Positions 40,939-54,830 of a stretch of DNA of 64,000 nucleotides are shown here, in pieces. The notes under the pieces are model-generated. The model saw only the letters and a program-made list of their open reading frames with translations, made no database searches and was not told the origin of the DNA. The position numbers and the translations under genes were made by a program. The DNA lies in NCBI RefSeq assembly GCF_000744775.1, contig NZ_JQMP01000004.1, forward strand, positions 62,001 through 126,000. The letters are read 5' to 3'. The DNA comes from Thermorudis peleae. Lineage in GTDB: Bacteria; Chloroflexota; Chloroflexia; Thermomicrobiales; Thermomicrobiaceae. Positions within the stretch are counted from its first letter, which is position 1. Every line of letters starts with the position of its first letter.

Positions 40939-41354
40939 AGCCGTTCCTCCTCTCTCTCCACCGTGGGCCTCTTTGGCTCCGCGGCGCCGTGCACCACCCA
41001 GACGGCGCGTCGCAGCGCATGGCAGCACCGGCATGCCGATCGCCGTCCACGCCTCGCACTCTCCGCAGTGGATGTCTCCAGCCACCATTAGTATCAATGC
41101 ATGGGAAACGAGAAGGGTGGGGTTCCCCTTATTTCCACTGCTTCGTGTACCGCCTTCGAACGTGAAGGGGAGCCAGGATGGTGGGTTCCCCCTTTACCGT
41201 TTCCACTGCTTCCCACTCGAGCCGTTCTCCCGCGCTCAGGTGCCTCTCCTTCAGTTTCCGCACCGAGACGTCGACATCATCACGTGATGCACGTCTTGAC
41301 GCCCTGCAGGTGAATCGGTCATCCTGTTCGGGGAAGGCACAAGGAGGTGGCGGG
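40939..41354. promoter_or_regulatory. Upstream region of the DISARM-like island with repeats
   Basis: 416 bp without a gene. It contains an imperfect direct repeat, GGTGG(G)GTTCCCC...TTTCCACTGCTTC at 41117-41144 and 41180-41212 (the 13-base end identical, 68 bp apart), and a perfect 12-bp palindrome CATCACGTGATG at 41278-41289, 65 bp before the DrmD-like start. These look like operator or promoter elements for the island; no -10/-35 pair is clear. Confidence 0.5.
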
Positions 41355-44270
41355 ATGAGCGTGCAGCCTGGGTCTGTGGTGCGGTTTCGCCATCGCCAGT
41401 GGGTGGTGCTGCCTGGCGACGACGTGGCGACGCTCGTGTTACGCCCCCTCACTGCCACGACGGACGATGCCATCATCGTCCACCGCGAGCTCGCCCAGTT
41501 ACTTGGCCACACCGTGCCGAGCGAGCGCATCGAGCCCGATCACTTCCCCATGCCCGACGCCCAGGCCATCGCCGATGCCGAGGCAGTGCGGTTGCTCTGG
41601 CAGGCCACGCGCTTGCAACTGCGGGAAGGAGCGGCACCCTTGCGCTCGCTAGGGCGCATCAGCGTGCGGCCACGGCCGTACCAGCTTGTCCCGTTGCTCA
41701 TGGCCCTCCGCCTCGCCCCGGTGCGACTACTCATCGCCGACGACGTCGGTGTCGGCAAGACGGTCGAAGCGGGCCTGATCGCCCGTGAGCTTCTTGATGC
41801 GGGCGATGCCCAGCGGCTGGCCGTCCTCTGCCCACCTGCACTCTGCGACCAATGGGCGACTGAGTTACGCGAGAAATTTCACCTCGAACCGGTCATTGTC
41901 GGCCCAGCGACACTCGGCCAGCTCGAGCGCCAGCTCCCCCCAGGCCGCTCCCTCTACCAGCACTACCGGGTGACGGTCATCAGCATCGACTTTCTCAAGC
42001 TGCCGCGCAACCGTGAGCCGTTCCTGCAGCACCCGCCCGACCTTGTCATCGTCGACGAAGCGCACGGTGTCGTTCCCGCAGGTGCTGGCGAGCGCGACCC
42101 GCGGCACTTGCGCTATGAACTCGTCTCAAAACTGGCACGCGATCCGCTCCGCCATCTGATCCTCTTGACGGCTACGCCACACAGCGGTATCCGCGATGCC
42201 TTCCAGCGTTTGCTCGGCTTGCTTAACCCGAGTTTTGCCAGCTGGCCACTCGACCAGCTCACGCCACAGCAGCAGCGTGAACTGGCCCGGCACCTCATCC
42301 AGCGCACCCGCGCCGACATCATCACCCAGTGGCCGGAAGCCCGCACGCTCTACCCCACACGCCAGGCGATCGAGCGCACCTACACGTTGTCGCTACCGTA
42401 CCGCCAGTTCTTCGAAGAGACTTTCGCCTTCTGCCGTGACCTCGTTGAGCGCAGCCGGAACTTACCCGATCGCCAGCGCCGTTTCCAGTGGTGGGCCGCC
42501 CTCACGTTGCTGCGCTGCGTGATGTCGAGCCCCCATGCCGGTGCCGAGGCGCTCGCACGCCGCCATGCCGCCCACGACGACGAGGCGACAGCGCTCATCC
42601 CCCTCCTCTGGGCAGATGAGGGCAGCGAGGAAGACGACCGTAGCGGCCTCGCGCTCGACCCGAGCGAGCGTCTTCCGAGCGACGAAGTACCGGCCACGCA
42701 ACTCGAAGCCGCAATCGTTGCGCCAAACGGCCTCGCGGAGGCAACCAAGCGCCGGCTTCGCCAACTCGAGCGGCTGGCCCGCGCAATCGCCCCGGCTGAC
42801 GACTCCAAATTGCAGCAGTGTATCGCGATCGTCCGCGAATTGATCGAGCAGGGCCGCAACCCGGTCATCTGGTGCATCTTCATCGACACGGCAGAGTATC
42901 TGGCAGCGCACTTGAAGCAGGCGCTGGCTGCCGCTGCCCCTGATGCCGCCGTCGGCTGTGTCACCGGCCGCCTCGGCGACGAAGAGCGCCGCGCCCGTGT
43001 CGCCGAATTGCTGCAGGCGCCGCGTCGGGTGCTGGTGGCGACCGACTGCCTCAGCGAAGGCGTGAACCTGCAGGAGGGGTTCGACGCCGTTATCCACTAC
43101 GACCTGCCGTGGAATCCGAACCGGCTCGAGCAACGTGAGGGGCGCGTCGACCGCTTTGGCCAGCCGCAGCCCACCGTGACCGCCGTCCGCTACTATGGCC
43201 GCGATAACCCCGTCGATGCCGAAGTTGTCGAGGTGCTGATCCGCAAGGCGACCCAGATCCGCCAGGCCCTCGGTGTACACGTGCCGGTGCCTGAGGACGA
43301 AGGCTGGCTGGCCGAGTTGCTCGTTCACCGTCTCTTCGAGCGGCCACGCCAGGCCCAGCTCGCGCTCCCCTTCGGCCCTGACCCGACCGAACAGCTCCTC
43401 CAACGCTGGGATGAAGACTCCCAACGCGAGCGGGCTCGCCGCACCCGCTTCGCACAAGCCGCCATCGACCCAGCAGCAGCAATCGAGGAACTCAACGCCT
43501 GCGATGCCGTCCTCGGTACGGAAGCTGACGTTCGCGATTTCGTGCTCGGCGCCGGCCAGCGCCTCGGGCTCCACTTTGTGCCCGACGAGGCGCAGCCAGG
43601 GGTATGGACGATCGACCTCAGCCCGGCTGCGCTGGTGACGGTGCCCGATGCGCTCCGTCTCGCCCTCCCCCGTGACCAGCGCGCCGGACGCTGGCGCATC
43701 ACCTTCGCTGATCCTCCGCCGGCCGGCGTGACCGCCCTGGTCCGCAACCATCCCTTCGTCGCCACTTTGGCACGCTATCTCTTCGAGCTCGCCTTCAGCG
43801 GACAGGCCACTGCCGCGGTAGCGCGGGTGGGTGTCGTCCGCACGAGCCTGGTGCGCGCCGTCACGGCCCTGGCCTTGCTCCGGGTACGCTACGCGGTCAG
43901 CCGGCCGAACCGACCTGACACCGTGCTTGAGGAAGCGCTCGTCGTTGGCTACGACCTGCTCGCTGAAACCTGGCTCGAGCCCGACCAGGCCCTGCCGCTG
44001 CTGGAACAGGCGCGCCCTGAGGCCGAGGTCGCGCTCGGCGAACGGCGCGAACTCGCCGCGTTTGCCCTGGACACGCTTGCGCCGCTCCTGACCCAGCCCG
44101 AACCACACGGCCCGCTGGGCATGCTCCTCGAGCGCCGAGCCGAGGCACTGCGTGCGGCATACCAACGGGTGCGCGAGGCAGCCCAAGCCAGCAAGCGCGG
44201 GCTCGACGTCCACCCGCTCTGGCCGCCTGACCTTGTCGCCCTGCTGGTCGCACAGCCGCGGCTGGGATAA
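41355..44270 (+). CDS. drmD: DrmD-like SNF2 helicase (DISARM class 1)
   Basis: A 971-residue SNF2-family ATPase. Motif I is IADDVGVGKTVEAGLI (about residue 130), motif II LVIVDEAHG, motif III LLTATPHSG, and the second RecA lobe has ATDCLSEGVNLQ and LEQREGRVDRFGQ. The family layout, long C-terminal part and an adjacent Eco57I-like methyltransferase are those of DrmD in class 1 DISARM phage defence; RapA-like helicases are the alternative. ATG 41355 follows aaggaggtggcggg; the frame opens earlier without a site. The methyltransferase starts 29 bp later, so both are likely cotranscribed. Confidence 0.85.
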   Translation: MSVQPGSVVRFRHRQWVVLPGDDVATLVLRPLTATTDDAIIVHRELAQLLGHTVPSERIEPDHFPMPDAQAIADAEAVRLLWQATRLQLREGAAPLRSLGRISVRPRPYQLVPLLMALRLAPVRLLIADDVGVGKTVEAGLIARELLDAGDAQRLAVLCPPALCDQWATELREKFHLEPVIVGPATLGQLERQLPPGRSLYQHYRVTVISIDFLKLPRNREPFLQHPPDLVIVDEAHGVVPAGAGERDPRHLRYELVSKLARDPLRHLILLTATPHSGIRDAFQRLLGLLNPSFASWPLDQLTPQQQRELARHLIQRTRADIITQWPEARTLYPTRQAIERTYTLSLPYRQFFEETFAFCRDLVERSRNLPDRQRRFQWWAALTLLRCVMSSPHAGAEALARRHAAHDDEATALIPLLWADEGSEEDDRSGLALDPSERLPSDEVPATQLEAAIVAPNGLAEATKRRLRQLERLARAIAPADDSKLQQCIAIVRELIEQGRNPVIWCIFIDTAEYLAAHLKQALAAAAPDAAVGCVTGRLGDEERRARVAELLQAPRRVLVATDCLSEGVNLQEGFDAVIHYDLPWNPNRLEQREGRVDRFGQPQPTVTAVRYYGRDNPVDAEVVEVLIRKATQIRQALGVHVPVPEDEGWLAELLVHRLFERPRQAQLALPFGPDPTEQLLQRWDEDSQRERARRTRFAQAAIDPAAAIEELNACDAVLGTEADVRDFVLGAGQRLGLHFVPDEAQPGVWTIDLSPAALVTVPDALRLALPRDQRAGRWRITFADPPPAGVTALVRNHPFVATLARYLFELAFSGQATAAVARVGVVRTSLVRAVTALALLRVRYAVSRPNRPDTVLEEALVVGYDLLAETWLEPDQALPLLEQARPEAEVALGERRELAAFALDTLAPLLTQPEPHGPLGMLLERRAEALRAAYQRVREAAQASKRGLDVHPLWPPDLVALLVAQPRLG

Positions 44271-44299
44271 CCTGCTGACTGTTTGAGAGGAGGATCGTC

Positions 44300-47200
44300 A
44301 TGGCCCTTACTCTGGAACGCCCTTTGACCAGTGCGCCAGCCCAGACGAGCGCTGGTGTGCGTCTGGTCGGTGGGCTCTTCGTCCCCGACTTGCTCGACCA
44401 GCTGCGGACCGATCCGACCTCACTCGACGGTCAGCGCCCAAGCGACTTCGGCTTCCCCGACGACCGCGCCCTGCGCGACGACATCGCTGAGGCCTACCGT
44501 GATGCCCTCGCCTGGTGGGACGTCTTTCAGCGCCGCCTCGCCCGCGTGCCCAAAGACGACCGTGCCGTTAGCCTGACCCGGGAGGAGTGGGTGCTCCCGC
44601 TGTTTCACCGCCTCGGCTACGAGCTCGTGCGCAACCCACGCGCCTACGAACTCGACGGGCAAACCTACGCCATTTCGCACCGGGCCGGCGAGAACGACGA
44701 CGCCCCGCCTGTCCACATCGCCGGGGCACGCCAGGAACTCGGCCGCGTCGATCCCTCCGGCCGACCGCGCCTCTCGCCTCACGCCCTTGTCCAGGAGTTC
44801 CTCAACCGCTCCGGCCAGCTCTGGGGCATCGCGACTAACGGTCTCACCCTCCGCCTGCTGCGCACATCGCCGCGGCTGCGCACTGAGACGTATGTCGAGT
44901 TCGATCTCGCTGCCATCTTCAGCGGCGAGCGCTATGGCGACTTCGTCGTCCTTTACCGGCTGCTCCACCGTAGCCGCCTCCCCACCGGACTGGAAGATGC
45001 CCCGTATTGCTGGCTGGAGCGCTATCACCAGCAGGGACAGGAGCAAGGAGCACGCGCCCGCGACCGGCTACGCGACGGCGTCGAGCGCGCTTTGCTGGCG
45101 CTCGGCAACGGCTTCCTGCGCCACCCGGCGAACGAAGCGCTACGCCAGCAGGTTGCAGCCGGTGAACTCTCCGCCAGCCGCTACTATGAGCTGCTCTTGC
45201 GCGTGGTTTACCGCCTGCTCTTCTTGCTCGTCACCGAGGAGCGCGGCCTGCTCGGCGGCAATACGATCTACTGGCAGGGCTATAGCCTCACCCGTCTCCG
45301 CCGCCTGGTCGAGGAATCGGCTCGCGACGACTATGACGACCTCTGGGCTGGCCTGCTCGCCCTCTTCCAGGTGCTACGCGATTCCACCCCGCAAGCCGAT
45401 GGCCAGCCGCTGGCCGCCCGGCTCGACCTGCCGGTGCTCGACGGCGACCTCTTCCGCGCTGAGCCATTCGAAGCATGGCGGCTCACCAACCGCGCCCTCC
45501 TCGACGCGCTCGCCGGCCTCTCCTTGCTGGCCGACGAGCAGGGTACCGTGCGACGCATTAACTACGCGGCGCTCGACGTCGAGGAGCTCGGCTCCGTCTA
45601 CGAGAGCCTGCTCGACCATGCCCCCGTCCTCGACCTTGCCGCCAGCGAGCCATTCAGCTTTGTCCAGGGGCAGGGTCTCGAGCGCAAGTCGACCGGCTCC
45701 TACTACACCCCGCCGGAACTCGTGCGCGAGCTGGTCGCCAGTGCGCTCGAGCCAGTGCTCGCGGCCCGGCTGCGCGGCAAAAAGACCAAAGACGAGCAGG
45801 AGCAGGTGATCCTCTCCCTCAAGGTCTGCGATCCAGCCGCCGGCTCCGGCCACTTCCTGCTGGCCGCTGCCCGCCGGCTCGCTCGCGAGCTGGCCCGGGT
45901 TCGCACCGGCGAGCAGGAACCAGCGCCCGAGACCGTGCGCGAAGCCCTGCGCGACGTCATTGCCCACTGCCTCTACGCCGTCGATAAGAACCCACTGGCC
46001 GTCGAACTCTGCAAGGTCGCGCTCTGGATCGAGGCCCATGTCCCCGGCCAGCCGCTCACCTTCCTCGACCACCGGATCAAGTGCGGCGACTCGCTGGTCG
46101 GCGTCTTCGACCTTGCAGTATTGCGGGATGGTATCCCCGACGAGGCATACGAGCGCGACGACGCGGCCGAGAAAGCGAAGGCGAGCAGCATCAAGCGACG
46201 CAACCGCCAGGAACGGGCTGGCCAGCTCACCCTCACGGCCGACGTTGTCGCCTTCGACAAGACGCTGCTCGACTTGGGGCGTCTCACTGAACATGTCGCG
46301 CAGATGCCCGAACGGACAATTGACGAGCGGCGGGCTAAAGAGCAGGCGTACCAGCAACTGCAGCGTGATCCCCGCTTCCGCCGCCTGCAGGCTGCCTGCG
46401 ACCTCTGGACGGCGGCCTTCTTCGCCGACCTGCGCCAGAGCGAGACCGTGCCGACGACCGACCACGTGCGCCAGGCCCTGGCCGGCACGCTCCACGATGC
46501 CCGCCTCACCGGCGCAGCCCAGGCGCTGGCCAGCGAGTTGCGCTTCTTCCACTGGCCGCTCGCGTTCCCGGACGTCTTCGTCCACGGCGGCTTCGACGTC
46601 GTCCTCGCCAACCCGCCATGGGAGCGAGTGAAGCTACAGGAAGAAGAGTTCTTCCGCGTCCGCGCCCCTCAGGTTGCCAGCGCTTCCAATGCAGCTGAAC
46701 GCAAGCGCCGCATCGCCGCGCTCGCCGACCAGGATCCAGCGCTCTATGCTGAATACCAGCAGGCGCTCCGCGCCGCCCAGGGCCAGAGCCGCTTTGTGCG
46801 CCAGAGCGGCCGCTTCCCACACGGTGGCCGGGGCGATGTCAACACCTACGCCGTCTTCACTGAACTCGCCTGGCACATGCTGGCGGCGAATGGCCGTGCT
46901 GGTCTCGTCATCCCGACCGGAATCGCGACCGACGACACCACCAAGCATCTCTTCGGAGCACTCGTCGCCAGGCGGGCGCTTGTCAGCCTCTTCGACTTCG
47001 AGAACCGCCGCGCGATCTTCCCAGGAGTGCACCGGAGCTATAAATTCTGCTTGCTGACGCTGACGCACAGTGAGCTGAGCGAGCCCGCCCGCTTCGCCTT
47101 CTACCTCCACCGGGTCGACGACCTGCGTGATCCGGAGCGCGTCTTCAGCCTGAGCCCCGCGGACTTTGCCCTGATCAACCCCAACACCCACACCTGCCCG

Positions 47201-48414
47201 GTCTTCCGCAGCCGCCGCGACGCGGAGATCACCCGGGCGGTCTACCAGCGTGTGCCGGTGCTGTGGCGCGATACCGCGGAGAACGACAGCTTTTCCGCGA
47301 GGTGCTCCGCCGTCTCGGAACGTCGCTCGGCGTCACGAAATCGACGCAGCCGAACCCGTGGGGCGTCGAGTTCCTGCGCATGTTCGATATGGCCAACGAC
47401 TCAGGACTCTTCCGCACGCGCAAGGAGCTTGAGGCTGCCGGCTACCGGCTGGTCGGCAACGTCTTCGTGCGTGGCGAGGAGCGGTATCTCCCGCTCTACG
47501 AGGCCAAGCTCGTGCACCAGTTCGACCACCGCTGGGCGAGCTACGGCGGCCCCGGCCGCTGGAACGCCGCCCCCGAGTCCGGCAGCCCGCCCTGGCTCGA
47601 GCAGCCCGCGCGCGATCGGGACGACGCCATTGCCCTCACGCAAGCGGCCAAGGCCGACCCTGAACTGGTCGTCCTGCCGCGCTACTGGGTGCCAGCGGCT
47701 GAGGTCGAGGCCCGGCTCGCGCGCAAGGGCTGGCCGCGCGGCTGGCTCCTCGGCTGGCGGGATATCACCAACGCAACGAATGAGCGCACGCTGATCGCCA
47801 GCGTCACCCCCCGGGTGGCAGTGGGGGACACCTTTCTCTTGTTGCTGCCCCACGAATCCTCGCCGATCATGATTGCCGGACTTTGTACAAACTTCAATTC
47901 ACTTGTTCTCGATTATGTCACCCGACTTAAAGCCGGAGGAACACACCTTAAATTCCATGTGACGAAGCAACTCCCCGTGCTGCCGCCGCAGGCCTACGAG
48001 CGGCCCTGCCCCTGGCGCCCAGGCGAGACCCTCGCCGACTGGATCCGCCCGCGGGTGCTCGAGCTGGTCTACACCGTCTGGGACCTCGCGCCGTTCGCGC
48101 GCGACCTCGGCGACGCCGGCCCGCCCTTCCGCTGGGATCCCGAGCGGCGGGCGCAGCTGCGCGCCGAACTCGACGCCGCGTACTTCCTCCTCTACGGGCT
48201 CAGCCGCAGCGAGGTCGAGTACGTCCTCGGCACCTTCCCCGTGCTGCGGCAGAACGAGGAGCGCTCCTTCGGCGAGTATCGGACAGCGCGGCTGGTGCTG
48301 GCCGCCTACGACGCGCTGATCACCGCCCAGACGCTCGGCGAGCCCTACCGCTCCCCGCTCCAGCCCCCGCCGGGGGACGCGGCAGCTCGGCACCGCGGCA
48401 CGAGCAGCAACTGA
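44300..48414 (+). CDS. drmMI: Eco57I-type adenine methyltransferase, DrmMI-like (frameshifted)
   Basis: A large N6-adenine methyltransferase split in two frames. The first frame (44300 on) contains the SAM motif [15 protein letters not shown] and catalytic [11 protein letters not shown]; the homology stops near 47264 at VYQRVPVLW, while the frame runs on without meaning to 47794. The second frame (47263-48414) carries the expected continuation, [22 protein letters not shown], and the recognition-domain end. Combined it would be about 1370 residues. Joining them needs a -1 shift between about 47266 and 47290. No good slippery heptamer is seen, so this is a mutation or a sequencing error, less likely programmed. 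ATG 44300 has gagaggagg upstream. Confidence 0.85.
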
Positions 48415-48939
48415 TTCGTCTGCAGGGAGACAGCATGAATCAGCCGCTCGCTTGAGCGAGCGCTGAGACCATTGCAGCGGTAAGCGCGCGATAGCAGTTC
48501 CACAGCAGGTGGCTCAGCGACACAGTGCCTGGGTCCAGGCCGGGTAAACCGCACGAATGGTCGTCTTTGTTTTCGACGAGTGCCGCAAGGGTCTTGCCAC
48601 ACGGGTCGCAAGGGCCATGTCACGTGGACGAACAAGGAACACCATCAAAGACGTCAGTGCGCAAAAGCCGAGTAGCAACCGACCAGCCGCGCTGAACACA
48701 ACGCAGTGCTTCTTCTGCAGTGCTCGCCAGCCCGTCGGATCTGCTTGGGCGGATAACAGCATGTCACCAGCACCAGTTGCATCGTTCGTACGCGGTTGAT
48801 AAACTTTTGGTGATGTAAATGCGCACCTGTACAGGAGGTAGTTGTGCTGGTTGACCGGGTCATTTGCACAAGGGGCTACCAGAATCCGGTACAGATAGTC
48901 CAGCGCCGGGATAGGCAATGGCAGCTGGTGGTCAGCAGT
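48415..48939. other. Gene-free stretch within the defence island
   Basis: About 525 bp with no gene that I can support; the longest open frame (minus, 48514-48918, 134 codons) has irregular composition and no domain. It is less GC-rich than the flanking large genes. Eight-base inverted words CGTCTTTG and CAAAGACG occur near 48560 and 48650. Confidence 0.5.
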
Positions 48940-49233
48940 TCATGCCTCAACGTCAACGGGAGTGGCGGAAGTTCCGGTGTTAAGCCATGCAAGAACACGT
49001 TCCAACACATGGCGGAGTTCGGTCCGCCACGCTTCCTCATCCAGGACGTGCTCGCTCCGCCAGACCACCAACGCCTCCAGATCGGCCACCACCTCGTCCG
49101 CCCTTGGCCCAAGGTGCTGTGCATCCCATCCTGGCAAGAGGACCGCTGTCACGAACTCATCCGGCGAACGCTCTCCAGCGAGCACTGCAGCGATTGAGCG
49201 AGCGACTTGTTCGAGGAAGGATTGCTCATCCAT
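48940..49233 (-). CDS. Small hypothetical helical protein in the defence island
   Basis: A 97-residue acidic, mostly helical protein (SFLEQVARSIAAVL..., then VVADLEALVVWRSEHVLD and WRTELRHVLERVLAWL). No domain is recognised. ATG 49233 is preferred because it shares the palindrome CATG with the start of the opposite gene; the frame also opens at 49260. The two divergent small genes may be a functional pair, but a toxin-antitoxin role is only a guess. Confidence 0.55.
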   Translation of the reverse strand: MDEQSFLEQVARSIAAVLAGERSPDEFVTAVLLPGWDAQHLGPRADEVVADLEALVVWRSEHVLDEEAWRTELRHVLERVLAWLNTGTSATPVDVEA

Positions 49234-49543
49234 GAATCCATCTCCAACCCGCGAAATCATCGTTGAGCCACTAGAACTACGCCGCCTCTTCCGCGACAGC
49301 GGGTTGTTGGAACGTTATCAACGCGGTGAGCTGACCGAAGAGATAAAGCGCAGCCGTCACGTGACCGATCCATTACACCCATTCTACTGCAACCACTCCG
49401 AAGTCGTGCGGCTGTTTGATGGCAACTTCAAAGTCGCCGTGATCCACCGCTATCGGAGAGCCGACGGGAGCCTCGCCGGCAGTGGCCTGCCCGATCCAAA
49501 GATGATCCGGATTGGTGACATCATCTACCGCACACCGTTCTAA
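49232..49543 (+). CDS. Conserved small protein with GxPDPK-type end
   Basis: A 103-residue protein whose C-terminal half, VIHRYRRADGSLAGSGLPDPKMIRIGDIIYR, resembles a group of short bacterial proteins of unknown function sharing a DGS...SG.PDPK pattern. ATG 49232 lies within CATG, overlapping the opposite start codon; the SD aggaagga is 12-18 bases upstream. It is followed by 238 bp before the DUF1998 helicase. Function is unknown. Confidence 0.6.
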   Translation: MNPSPTREIIVEPLELRRLFRDSGLLERYQRGELTEEIKRSRHVTDPLHPFYCNHSEVVRLFDGNFKVAVIHRYRRADGSLAGSGLPDPKMIRIGDIIYRTPF

Positions 49544-49781
49544 CTGGTGCGCTTTCCCGACAAACAGAGTGCCACACGGCAATTGCATTGGCCTGTTATC
49601 ACGTCATCTGTCACAGTGCAGCTGCCTGGCGGAACAGAAGCAACAACAGCGAGGAGGACATTCGTACGCTCGCGTTCGTTGACGGTATGCGCTATCCTTT
49701 GGTCAGCCCGTATGCTGCTGAGGCTGGCTCAGGCCGAGGCGCTGGCTTCACCGTCCGGTCTGTACGCAGGGAGAGCGGCTC

Positions 49782-52700
49782 GTGTCGATCTTTACCGTGC
49801 ATCAGCGTGTCCTCCAGGACTACCAGGACTTCATCCACTCGTTTGTTGTGGCCAGTGATCCGCGGATTCAAGAAGAGATTCGCCGGTTGCTCCTTGACGA
49901 GCAGCACCTCTGGCCAGAACCGCTCATCCAACTCTCGCCCACCTACCGCCGCGACGCCACCGTCGACGAGTTGGCAGCAGAGGGTATTCTGCATCCGACA
50001 ACCGCCCAGGTCTTCCGCCGGGCCGATGGCCAGTCCATCCGCCTCTACACCCACCAGGTTCACGCAATCCGAGCCATCCAGGCTGGCCGCAGCGTCGTCG
50101 TCACGTCGGGGACTGGCTCCGGGAAGAGCTACTGCTATTTCGTCCCGATCGTCGATACGGCCGTCCGGTTTCCTGAAGAGCCTGGCCCTATTGCCATCGT
50201 TGTCTACCCAATGAACGCGCTCGTCAACTCGCAGCACCAAGCGCTCAGCGAGCTGAAGCGCCACTACGAGGCACGCACCGGCCAGCCATTCCCGCTGCGT
50301 TTTGCTCGCTACACGGGCGAAACCCCCAACGAGGAGCGCGAGCGCCTCCGCCGCGAGCCGCCACACCTGCTCCTTACCAACTACGTCATGGCCGAACTCT
50401 TGCTCGACCGCCCTGAGGACGAGCCATTCATCCACCCCCGCCCCGATGCCCGTGCTCCCTTCTTCCTAGTCTTCGACGAGCTCCATACCTATCGCGGCCG
50501 CCAGGGGGCCGATGTCGCCCTGCTCGTCCGGCGGCTCCGGGCCCGACTCGAGCGCCCCCAGGTCATCCACGTCGGCACCAGCGCCACACTCGTCGCTCAT
50601 CGCAACGCAACGGCTGCGGAACGCCGGGAGGTCGTCGCCGACTTCGCCTCCCGGTTCTTCGGCCACCCCTTTACTCCAGCAGATATCATCGAAGAGACAC
50701 TCGTGCCCGCTACCGACGGAGGCCTGCCGACGCCCACTGAGCTGGCCGCAGCGCTCGAGAGCCCACTGCCAACCGAACGCGAGGCACTGCGCCGCCACCC
50801 GTTGACACGCTGGCTCGAGTATGCGCTCGGCGTCAGCCCCGAACCTGACGGCAGCCTGCGCCGCCGCATCCCGCGCTCGCTGGCCGCTGTGGCTGCCGAA
50901 TTAGCCGAACTCACCGGCTGTCCCCCGACCACGTGCGCCGAACGTCTCCGACAGGTGCTCGAAGCTGCCAGTCAGCCGCTTCCTCCAGTCGGCCAGCCGC
51001 TTTTCGCCCTGAAGCTCCATCAGTTCATCGCGCAGAGTCATGCGCTCTTCGCCACGCTTGAACCAGCGAACTCGCGGAGCTTTTCGACTGAATTGCACGT
51101 TGGTGGTGAGCGGCCCTTCTTTCCTCTCTGCTTCTGCCGTGTCTGTGGGCAAGAGTACTACCGGGTGGCCGTTCGGAATGACTGCGTCGTGCCGTATCCC
51201 CCGGCGACGCAGCTCGACGACGGCGAAGCCGTACTCGGCTACCTCGCCCTGGCTGAAGCGGTTCCCACATGGAGCAACGCTGATCTTCCCGACGAGTGGC
51301 GCGACGCCGACGGGCGGCTGCGTCCGACCTGGCGCGACCGGGCGCCCGTCCCTGTCTGGATCTTCCCTGATGGGCGATTGGTCGAAGGGGAAGTCGATGG
51401 AGCGCAGGCGGCATGGCTCCAACGCGAACGGTTCTGGATCTGCCAGTCCTGCGGCACGTGGTATGGCCGGCGCGAAAGCGAGTACCAAAAGCTGAGCTAC
51501 CTGGCCAGTGAAGGGCGCAGTTCGGCAACAACCGTCCTTGCCGTTTCTCTCCTCCGCCATGCCCGCTTCCTTGGCGGTCGCGATAAGCTGCTCACCTTCA
51601 CTGACAGCCGGCAGGACGCCTCGCTGCAGGCCGGGCACTTCAACGACTTTGTGCATGTCGCCGTGCTCCGCTCAGCGCTCTATGCCGCCCTGAAAGAACA
51701 CGGCACGCTGCACTTCGATACCGTCGCCACGGAAACAGTCAAGCAGATGGGACTCGAGCTGGCCGACATTGCCCGCGAGCGCCAACTGAACCCAAAGTCG
51801 TTGCAAGCGCACCAGGTCTGGGAAACATTCTACGAGCTGACGGAGTACCGCCTCTATGAAGACCTGTACCGTGGCTGGCGAGTGGCCCTGCCGAACCTCG
51901 AGGACGTGGGCTTGCTGCACATCGACTATGTCGGGCTCGAGGAGTTGACCGAAGACGACACGGAGTGGGCCGACACGCCACTCGCCACTGTCTCCCCCGA
52001 GCGCCGTTACCAGCTGCTCCGCGTGCTTCTTGACTACCTGCGCCGACAGCTAGCAATTGCCACACCGCTGCTCAATGACGAGGCGGCCCAGCGCCGGCTG
52101 CGCAAGCAGGCCATCGAGCTACTGAACGAGTTTTGGGGGCTTGATCCTAGCCAGGCAAGCCTGCGCCGGGCTACCCGATTCATCTGGCCAGCCCCGACAA
52201 ACGACGATGAAGGCGCACGCAGCCTCTCGCCACGCACGGCGCTTGGTCGCTTTTTCTGCCGTGAGCTGAGGCTCGACGCAAAAGCGTACGAGAGCGCCAT
52301 GCCCCAGATCCTCCAACGCCTTGCCTCCTATGGCCTGCTCAGGGCCACACCCATCGCTGACAGTACCGGAAAGAAGGTAGCGTACCAACTCCAACCGAGC
52401 GCACTTTGCTGGAAGTGTGGTGACGGCACTCCAGTGCTCGACCCGCTTGCCCAGCCTCAGCCAAGCTCAGCTGAGCGTCGATCAAACCGCTTCTTCCGGC
52501 AGTTCTACCAGGATGCGGCCAGGGAACTCGGCGCGCTTGAAGCCCGCGAGCATACCGCCCAGGTCGTTGCGTCCGGCGAACGTGTCCGCCGGGAACGGCG
52601 CTTCCGTTGGGCCGAAGAAGACCGCACCGACCCAACCCTCGGGCGTCGTCTCCCTTACCTGGTCTGCTCACCGACGATGGAACTCGGCGTCGACATCGCC

Positions 52701-54830
52701 GACCTCGACTTCGTCCACCTGCGCAACGTGCCGCCTACTCCAGCTAATTACGCTCAGCGCAGCGGCCGGGCCGGTCGGCAAGGGCAACCAGGCCTCATCC
52801 TCACATTCTGCGGCGCCTGGAACCAGCACGACCAATACTTCTTCCGCCACCGTGACGAGATGGTCGCAGGCGCTGTCCGTGCTCCGCGCATTGATCTGGC
52901 CAACGAAGCTCTTCTGCAGTCGCATGTGCTCGCTGAGTGGCTTTCAGAATCGGGTCTGGCGCTCCACGAGTCGATCGAGACGGTGATTGACACCGAGCAC
53001 CGCCCTGAGCTGCCACTGCGTGAACTGATTCGCGCTCACCTGGTGCTCAGGCCAGCGCAACGCGAGCGACTGCTCCGTCGGCTCGACCGCATCTTTGGCC
53101 CCAGCGACAAGGAACTGCTCGGACAGCACGGCTGGTTCAACCAGCGCTGGCTCGAGCAACTGGTCGAGGAGGCGCCGCAGCGCTTCGACCGCGCCTTTGG
53201 CCGCTGGCGCGAACTCTTTCGGGCCGCAACGGAACAACTCGATGAGGCCCATAAGCGCTTGAGCGTCGCCCGGGGCCAAACCGAACAGGATGAAGCACGA
53301 CGTCTCCAAGACGAAGCGTTACGGCAACGGAACCTCCTCCTTCAGCAAAATGTTGCCCGCGAGGAGAGCGACTTTTACCCCTATCGCTACCTCGCCACTG
53401 AAGGGTTCTTGCCCGGCTATAACTTCCCTGCTCTACCGGTGCGCGCCTGGGTGCCTCGGGGCGACGGCGAGTACATTGCCCGGCCACGCTTCTTAGCCGT
53501 GACAGAGTTCGCACCAGGGAACATTGTCTATCACGAAGGGAGTAAGTGGCGGTTTAGCCGGTTCATCGCTCCCACGGGTGAACTGCAGTCTCGGGTGGTC
53601 ACCCGCAAGCGCTGTCTACGGTGCGAGAGCTTTGCCGAGCCAACCGACGACCTCTGTCCCGGCTGCGGCCAAGAACTGAGTGGGGCTGCCTTCGAATTGC
53701 TGTCCTTCCTCGAGATGCCGAACGTCTGCCTCGAGCGCGACGAGCGCATCACCTGTAACGAGGAAGAGCGGCAATTGCGGAGCTATGTTCGCAAGATAGC
53801 CTACCGGACTGCACCGAATGGGCCAGATAGCCCGATTGAGGCCGACGTGCTGGTCGATGGCCAACCGCTGCTGCGGCTTCGCTACGCCCCATCGGCAACC
53901 TTGCTCACACTCAATATGGGCTGGCGGGCAAGCGGCGCGTTCGGCTTCCAGATCGACCTGGCCAGCGGAGAAGTCAAGATGGACGACGAGAAATTTACTC
54001 AGTCCTCTAGGTCACCGGCCACAACGAGCAACTGGCAGCGCCTCGCCCTGGGCGTGCAGGAGACGCGCAACCTACTCTTCGTCTTCCACCTTGACCCAGA
54101 ACTCCGCCGCGATGCGAAACTGCGTGCCTCCCTGCGGGCGGCCTTACAGCGCGGCATCGGTGCAACATTCCAACTCGAGGAACGCGAGTTGGGAGTCGTC
54201 GAGGTCGGCCAAGACGAGTACCACGCTCTGCTCTTTATTGAGGAAACCGAAGGTGGCCTTGGTGTCCTACGGCGCATCCTCGAGGATTCAGACGCGCTGG
54301 CCGAAGTCGCCCGCGAAGCTTTGCGCCTCTGCCATTTCGCACCTGAGACTGAAAAGCCCACCTGCACCAGCGCATGCGCCGAATGCTTGCTGAGTTATAC
54401 CAACGCCCGCGATTTCGCCTTGCTCGACCGCTTCGCCGTGCGTCCACTGCTTGAACAGCTCGTCCGCGCCGAGACGCGCCTTCGGGTCGGCTCCCGGGAC
54501 GCTGCTGCCCACTATGCCTGGCTCCAAACACGCTGTGAGTCGTCACTCGAACGGCAATTCCTTGATATCCTCTGGCAACACCGCTTGCGTCTGCCAGACG
54601 ACGCGCAGCGACTCATCGAGACGCCACGGTGCCGCGCTGACTTCTTCTACCAGCCGAACGTGCTCGTCTTCCTTGACGGCCCGGTGCACGATCAGCCTGA
54701 CCAGCGACATCTTGGCGAGCGAACCCGGCGCATCCTCCTCGCGGCAGGCTACCGCGTGGTCGTGCTTCGGTACGACCAGGATCTGCTTGCCCAGATGCAA
54801 GCCTATCCTGACATCTTTGGCACCGCTTGA
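49782..54830 (+). CDS. DEAD/DEAH helicase with DUF1998 region and C-terminal Vsr-like nuclease fold
   Basis: A 1682-residue MrfA/DrmA-DrmB-like helicase. Walker A TSGTGSGKSY (about 109), DELHTYRG (about 231), GTSATLV, and in lobe two SPTMELGVDIADL with QRSGRAGRQG (about 990). Zinc pairs CRVCG, CQSCG, CWKCG and CLRC...CPGCG follow; the DUF1998 cysteine cluster is CTSACAECLLSY (about 1526). The last 100 residues have ESSLERQFL, CRADFFY and VLVFLDGPVHD, the Glu, Asp and D-G-x-x-H pattern of PD-(D/E)XK Vsr/DUF559-type nucleases. DISARM normally has DrmA and DrmB as separate proteins. GTG start with gcagggagag upstream. Confidence 0.85.
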   Translation: MSIFTVHQRVLQDYQDFIHSFVVASDPRIQEEIRRLLLDEQHLWPEPLIQLSPTYRRDATVDELAAEGILHPTTAQVFRRADGQSIRLYTHQVHAIRAIQAGRSVVVTSGTGSGKSYCYFVPIVDTAVRFPEEPGPIAIVVYPMNALVNSQHQALSELKRHYEARTGQPFPLRFARYTGETPNEERERLRREPPHLLLTNYVMAELLLDRPEDEPFIHPRPDARAPFFLVFDELHTYRGRQGADVALLVRRLRARLERPQVIHVGTSATLVAHRNATAAERREVVADFASRFFGHPFTPADIIEETLVPATDGGLPTPTELAAALESPLPTEREALRRHPLTRWLEYALGVSPEPDGSLRRRIPRSLAAVAAELAELTGCPPTTCAERLRQVLEAASQPLPPVGQPLFALKLHQFIAQSHALFATLEPANSRSFSTELHVGGERPFFPLCFCRVCGQEYYRVAVRNDCVVPYPPATQLDDGEAVLGYLALAEAVPTWSNADLPDEWRDADGRLRPTWRDRAPVPVWIFPDGRLVEGEVDGAQAAWLQRERFWICQSCGTWYGRRESEYQKLSYLASEGRSSATTVLAVSLLRHARFLGGRDKLLTFTDSRQDASLQAGHFNDFVHVAVLRSALYAALKEHGTLHFDTVATETVKQMGLELADIARERQLNPKSLQAHQVWETFYELTEYRLYEDLYRGWRVALPNLEDVGLLHIDYVGLEELTEDDTEWADTPLATVSPERRYQLLRVLLDYLRRQLAIATPLLNDEAAQRRLRKQAIELLNEFWGLDPSQASLRRATRFIWPAPTNDDEGARSLSPRTALGRFFCRELRLDAKAYESAMPQILQRLASYGLLRATPIADSTGKKVAYQLQPSALCWKCGDGTPVLDPLAQPQPSSAERRSNRFFRQFYQDAARELGALEAREHTAQVVASGERVRRERRFRWAEEDRTDPTLGRRLPYLVCSPTMELGVDIADLDFVHLRNVPPTPANYAQRSGRAGRQGQPGLILTFCGAWNQHDQYFFRHRDEMVAGAVRAPRIDLANEALLQSHVLAEWLSESGLALHESIETVIDTEHRPELPLRELIRAHLVLRPAQRERLLRRLDRIFGPSDKELLGQHGWFNQRWLEQLVEEAPQRFDRAFGRWRELFRAATEQLDEAHKRLSVARGQTEQDEARRLQDEALRQRNLLLQQNVAREESDFYPYRYLATEGFLPGYNFPALPVRAWVPRGDGEYIARPRFLAVTEFAPGNIVYHEGSKWRFSRFIAPTGELQSRVVTRKRCLRCESFAEPTDDLCPGCGQELSGAAFELLSFLEMPNVCLERDERITCNEEERQLRSYVRKIAYRTAPNGPDSPIEADVLVDGQPLLRLRYAPSATLLTLNMGWRASGAFGFQIDLASGEVKMDDEKFTQSSRSPATTSNWQRLALGVQETRNLLFVFHLDPELRRDAKLRASLRAALQRGIGATFQLEERELGVVEVGQDEYHALLFIEETEGGLGVLRRILEDSDALAEVAREALRLCHFAPETEKPTCTSACAECLLSYTNARDFALLDRFAVRPLLEQLVRAETRLRVGSRDAAAHYAWLQTRCESSLERQFLDILWQHRLRLPDDAQRLIETPRCRADFFYQPNVLVFLDGPVHDQPDQRHLGERTRRILLAAGYRVVVLRYDQDLLAQMQAYPDIFGTA

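Follow-up and report, generated by a model that had tools for sequence, protein, structure and literature searches.

Three plus-strand genes in the heat-loving bacterium Thermorudis peleae form the core of a locus that poses a question of classification: do a SNF2/RapA helicase, an N6-adenine methyltransferase and a helicase of 1682 residues amount to a compact and undescribed form of DISARM, as a sequence-only reading had proposed, or does the arrangement belong to a system that already has a name? We examined the locus within a window of 64,000 nucleotides (bases 62001-126000 of contig C4; the genome comprises 2.93 Mb in 4 contigs), from a host whose nearest relatives are members of the Thermomicrobium family. 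The answer that we favour, with a probability of about 0.88, is that the locus is an ARMADA type I anti-phage system, consisting of armA, armB and armC without armD; it adds one member to the published type I and does not constitute a new subtype. Its features are as follows.

41355 to 44270, plus strand: armA, a BrxHII/DrmD/DpdE-like RapA (SNF2) helicase of 971 aa, its start placed from homologs and an AGGAGG-like site
44300 to 47794, plus strand: armB, first part, a PglX/DrmMI/YeeA-like N6-adenine methyltransferase by profile matches and motifs
47285 to 47355, plus strand: insertion in armB, about 65-71 bp extra in comparison with relatives, with a 4-bp direct repeat (GAAC) at both sides
47263 to 48414, plus strand: armB, C-terminal part, in a shifted frame, with about 60-74% identity to the intact armB C-terminal part in Thermomicrobium-family relatives
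48940 to 49233, minus strand: short member of a divergent gene pair, 97 aa from MDEQSF, judged a passenger
49232 to 49543, plus strand: second small gene of the pair, 103 aa (MNPSPT), judged a passenger, with relatives away from ARMADA
49782 to 54830, plus strand: armC, a YprA/DruE-like DEAD helicase of 1682 aa, by profiles, alignment and models
armC domains, in approximate residues: RecA1 90-271; winged helix-turn-helix (wHTH) 717-880; Helicase_C 956-1001; helical region 1081-1186; OB-CON and MZB/DUF1998 1220-1536; Vsr nuclease 1587-1680

ARMADA, as described by Bell et al. 2025 (PMC12458937), has three constituents: ArmA, a helicase of the BrxHII/RapA kind; ArmB, a PglX-like methyltransferase; and ArmC, a YprA-like helicase whose C-terminus is a Vsr nuclease. 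All three families can be recognised here. The armA reading frame opens at 41178, and homologs begin at the ATG at 41355, with the AGGAGG-like site upstream; the product retains an intact Walker A motif (GVGKT) and DEAH box. Its best PADLOC profiles are DpdE (561 bits) and DrmD (293 bits), bearing out the DrmD-like SNF2 helicase originally proposed, though DpdE is the better match. The DrmMI-like methyltransferase of that proposal is likewise upheld, both by profiles and by the motifs DPAAGSGHF and NPPW, which are intact.

The description of the 1682-residue protein as a DEAD helicase with DUF1998 and a Vsr-like nuclease also held, in profile searches as in fold searches. Profiles identify DEAD, Helicase_C and MZB/DUF1998 in the sequence; alignment with 14 homologs runs over the full length, and the motor motifs are invariant. 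When an AlphaFold model of residues 1040-1682, built from 38 sequences (mean pLDDT 87), was used in a fold search, the OB-CON-DUF1998 part resembled MrfA (Z 12.1) and DrmB (Z 10.2), and the last 95 residues matched the Vsr nuclease 1cw0 (Z 8.1 over 92 residues, rmsd 2.7 A) as well as the homing nuclease I-Bth0305I (Z 9.5). Residues E1590, D1620, D1632 and H1636 are near-invariant among homologs, and the C-terminal tail is, on the strength of the model, a predicted Vsr-type nuclease. Published ArmC proteins carry a BrxA-like helical domain after RecA1, and a beta-barrel with CxxC motifs and a MarR-like wHTH inserted at RecA2 (PMC12458937). In a second model, of residues 262-960 (pLDDT 87), a helical domain is predicted to follow RecA1 at about 278-397, with BrxA not among the fold matches listed; strands and a winged helix are also predicted, the winged helix finding only weak matches (Z below 7). 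CxxC motifs occur at residues 452, 554 and 876.

Which type of ARMADA this would be depends on what accompanies the three genes. Type II has an additional downstream gene for ArmD, a RelE-UvrD/GajB-like helicase that is essential in E. coli type II, whereas type I has no ArmD and a single zinc-binding insertion in the OB region (PMC12458937). Here the gene after armC is Vut_1-like and on the minus strand, and no ArmD match occurs within the window, so the downstream ArmD that marks type II is missing. The OB region of ArmC contains one CxxC pair (1278/1292), as in the description of type I.

The names returned by profile searches nonetheless point in several directions. PADLOC 2.0 (2023), which predates ARMADA, labels the locus DpdE plus DrmMI plus DruE, and the top scores of ArmC, 304 bits for DruE3 and 293 bits for DruE1 against 52 bits for DrmA, would by themselves suggest a Druantia-type system; in the same library DruE is the top profile for the E. 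coli ArmC as well. We find that identification scarcely credible: among the families listed in the profile scan, none of the operon genes was recognised as DruH/STY4851-like, and the tail is of the Vsr and not the PLD type. A maximum-likelihood tree of 38 ArmC/DruE-type proteins, obtained by a quick search in which ARMADA II was represented by one reference and Druantia III by two, sets ArmC apart from Druantia III and places it within the ARMADA type I clade (99-100% SH-aLRT). Outside that clade fall E. coli ARMADA II, Druantia III and also the Druantia-like proteins of the same bacterial family. As judged from these scores and this placement, ArmC is a YprA helicase of the ARMADA/Druantia branch and not a fusion of DrmA and DrmB, contrary to the earlier suggestion that a fusion had replaced those two proteins.

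The same evidence bears on whether the locus might be a DISARM subtype of its own, not yet described, with a single protein standing in for DrmA, DrmB and DrmC. DrmD and DrmMI are indeed among the profiles that match ArmA and ArmB, and ARMADA and DISARM class 1 have two proteins in common (PMC12458937), but the large protein favours DruE over DrmA, falls in the ARMADA I clade, and is accompanied neither by a separate DrmB-type gene nor by a linked PLD nuclease. A second MZB/DUF1998 match is absent from the genome, whose sole MZB match lies inside ArmC, and PLDc_2 matches once, on a different contig and unlinked to the locus, so the standard DISARM gene set is absent; the complete drmABC that might have lain nearby outside the window was not encountered. 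As the arrangement has moreover been published and named, we consider a new DISARM subtype very improbable. What stands of the DISARM-like description is thus the DISARM-related pairing of methyltransferase and helicase, together with the fused helicase-DUF1998-nuclease; what falls is the label of compact DISARM, the system being read instead as ARMADA type I, along with the claims of an undescribed subtype, since the layout already bears the name ARMADA (PMC12458937), and of a defence island, since housekeeping genes flank the locus on its sides.

A survey of the three-gene set across genomes had been suggested from the outset, and the trio does recur. Scanning named genomes yielded 586 candidate stretches encoding relatives, of which the best 80 were kept, a sample biased to the nearest relatives. 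Among these best 80 of 586, ArmA and ArmB adjoin ArmC on the same strand in 61 loci, and ArmA lies at a contig end in 5 more; ArmA is present in every locus with sequence on the informative side (66/66), the other 14 of the 80 being without such sequence. The 586 candidate stretches, the recurring trio and the 14 end-to-end homologs together show that chance is not the explanation. Linkage of the ArmC helicase to the methyltransferase in other genomes, together with the Vsr tail, also rules out an ordinary MrfA repair helicase, the reading under which the two genes would have been unlinked elsewhere. Against viral contigs, a single-protein ArmC query found no relative. Gene order is less constant than gene content: C-A-B in 51 of the 61 full trios and A-B-C, the order found here, in 10, with at least five changes required on the tree and a difference even between two close genomes of the Thermomicrobium family (G011 and G016). 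In the published description the usual type I order is C-A-B, with A-B-C in many archaea and cyanobacteria (PMC12458937).

Several of the related loci merit a brief record. On a plasmid of Thermus thermophilus SNM3-3 (L046), an ARMADA-like locus with a downstream ArmD match has BREX brxL on one side and type III-A CRISPR genes on the other, and its ArmC clusters with a haloarchaeal ArmC and not with the other Thermus type I protein. On a conjugative plasmid of Nocardioides sp. JS614 (L033), ARMADA I is the neighbour of the DISARM genes drmA and drmB, of a cytosine methyltransferase gene and of McrBC genes, all lying next to one another. Four loci in same-family genomes (L132-L135) encode a further YprA helicase, Druantia-like and about 1500 aa long, that ends at MZB, with no nuclease tail recognised; in L132 it is preceded by an 809-aa gene that matched no Pfam or PADLOC family.

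Identity is one matter and integrity another. The homology of the first armB frame to its relatives stops at about 47284, after which the frame continues out of register to its stop at 47794, and homology picks up again in another frame at about 47356. An insertion of some 65-71 bp, the size varying with where its edges are placed, has therefore shifted the frame; it occurs nowhere else in the genome, relatives give only short weak matches to it, and its length exceeds that of an ordinary single-base sequencing error. In five same-family relatives (G005, G009, G011, G013 and G018) armB is a single open frame of 1374-1478 codons from stop to stop, and it is uninterrupted in 40/44 named loci that show both halves, these too drawn from the best 80 of 586. 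Neither of the two small genes once thought to be further components can keep that role: the frame at 47263-48414 is the C-terminal part of armB displaced by the frameshift, and the other is half of the passenger pair. From the comparison of sequences, armB in this genome is probably damaged or in two pieces, barring an error of assembly; the cut falls ahead of its C-terminal third, probably the part that recognises the target. Such a cut would probably impair the system, unless the pieces cooperate or the assembly is wrong. By analogy with E. coli ARMADA II, in which the ArmB NPPW motif is essential, this ARMADA copy is probably inactive, unless ArmB can function as two cooperating pieces.

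It may then be that the locus is ARMADA I in the form of a degraded, non-functional relic with a dead armB and undecayed motors, an interpretation compatible with the ARMADA I identity that competes only with a working copy, and on which we are evenly divided. The frameshifting insertion, set beside the single armB frame of the five relatives and of most named loci, speaks for it, as does D. radiodurans MP1, where armB is also divided between two CDS and an IS element is present; armA and armC, by contrast, are fully open, with all motor residues and the nuclease-motif residues of ArmC present. That these two genes are intact implies that the lesion is recent, that the assembly is at fault, or that the halves of ArmB complement each other. 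In D. radiodurans R1 the ARMADA I locus lies on plasmid MP1 (L030, 12001-24891), with ISDra3 as the element interrupting armB, which is annotated there as two CDS, and adjoins a HicA toxin gene and a McrB-family gene.

Between armB and armC, the start codons of the divergent pair (48940-49543) overlap in one CATG, and neither gene has a Pfam match. The pair is kept at the same place in two same-family ARMADA loci only (G005 and G009), with mismatches falling mostly at third codon positions, a bias that reflects coding constraint on both genes. Homologs also occur outside ARMADA, adjacent and divergent in G007 and G002; because they are found in genomes and places without ARMADA, the pair are, on present comparisons, passengers and not ARMADA components. 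They are perhaps toxin-antitoxin-like, which is a guess. In Thermomicrobium relatives (L035, L037, L038 and L039) the content of the same gap varies, including MBL-fold proteins, an IrrE/ImmA-like peptidase, a SpoVT/AbrB-like gene with PIN, and a NERD-UvrD helicase. A speculative reading, which we hold to be unlikely, is that the gap in this group is an insertion hotspot gathering defence-like genes, the divergent module among them, around a three-gene system that works without ArmD and here perhaps with ArmB as two polypeptides.

How would a type I system operate? In E. coli, ARMADA II stops phages without killing the cell, and this protection depends on the motors of ArmA and ArmC and on the NPPW motif of ArmB (PMC12458937); the related DruE is a helicase-nuclease that loads on 3' ssDNA and cuts long DNA (PMC13192584); in the literature we found anti-phage activity shown for E. 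coli type II and no experimentally tested type I. A scheme for type I can be extrapolated from three sources: the genetics of E. coli ARMADA II, the biochemistry of DruE from Druantia III, and DISARM. ArmB would methylate adenines of host DNA as a self mark, and unmarked DNA would be inspected by ArmC together with ArmA, a double-strand DNA translocase. ArmC may load on single-stranded, replication-type DNA, its DEAD motor unwinding the DNA beneath a canopy of OB-CON-DUF1998, with the C-terminal Vsr-type nuclease then cutting what has been unwound. Taken as a whole, this scheme has in our estimate about as much chance of being right as of being wrong. The present analysis thus has consequences of three kinds: 1) a DISARM-like locus labelled by a profile library of 2023 receives a second reading as ARMADA; 2) type I gains thermophilic loci, which close relatives such as Thermomicrobium sp. 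CFH 73360 (L052) carry in intact form and which are suited to asking whether ARMADA defends without ArmD; 3) a warning attaches to this particular genome, where the methyltransferase is probably broken.

Set against known systems, the locus shares with ARMADA type I its BrxHII/RapA helicase, its PglX-like methyltransferase, its YprA-like helicase with DUF1998 and Vsr tail, its three-gene composition and its position on the tree, and differs in having a frameshifted armB, the order A-B-C instead of C-A-B, and a divergent gene pair between armB and armC. With ARMADA type II, as found in E. coli NCTC 12900 and on an E. coli plasmid (L047), it has in common the order A-B-C and the three protein families, but it has no ArmD, its ArmC measures 1682 aa as opposed to 2113 aa, and it occupies a separate branch. 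The DruE of Druantia III likewise joins MZB/DUF1998 and a nuclease tail to a YprA-like helicase, and provides the top PADLOC profile for ArmC, whereas Druantia III has a PLD nuclease where Vsr is found here, a DruH partner, and no core methyltransferase. DISARM class 1, finally, resembles the locus in its DrmD-like helicase and DrmMI-like methyltransferase, and is unlike it in possessing separate DrmA and DrmB and a linked PLD protein, DrmC.
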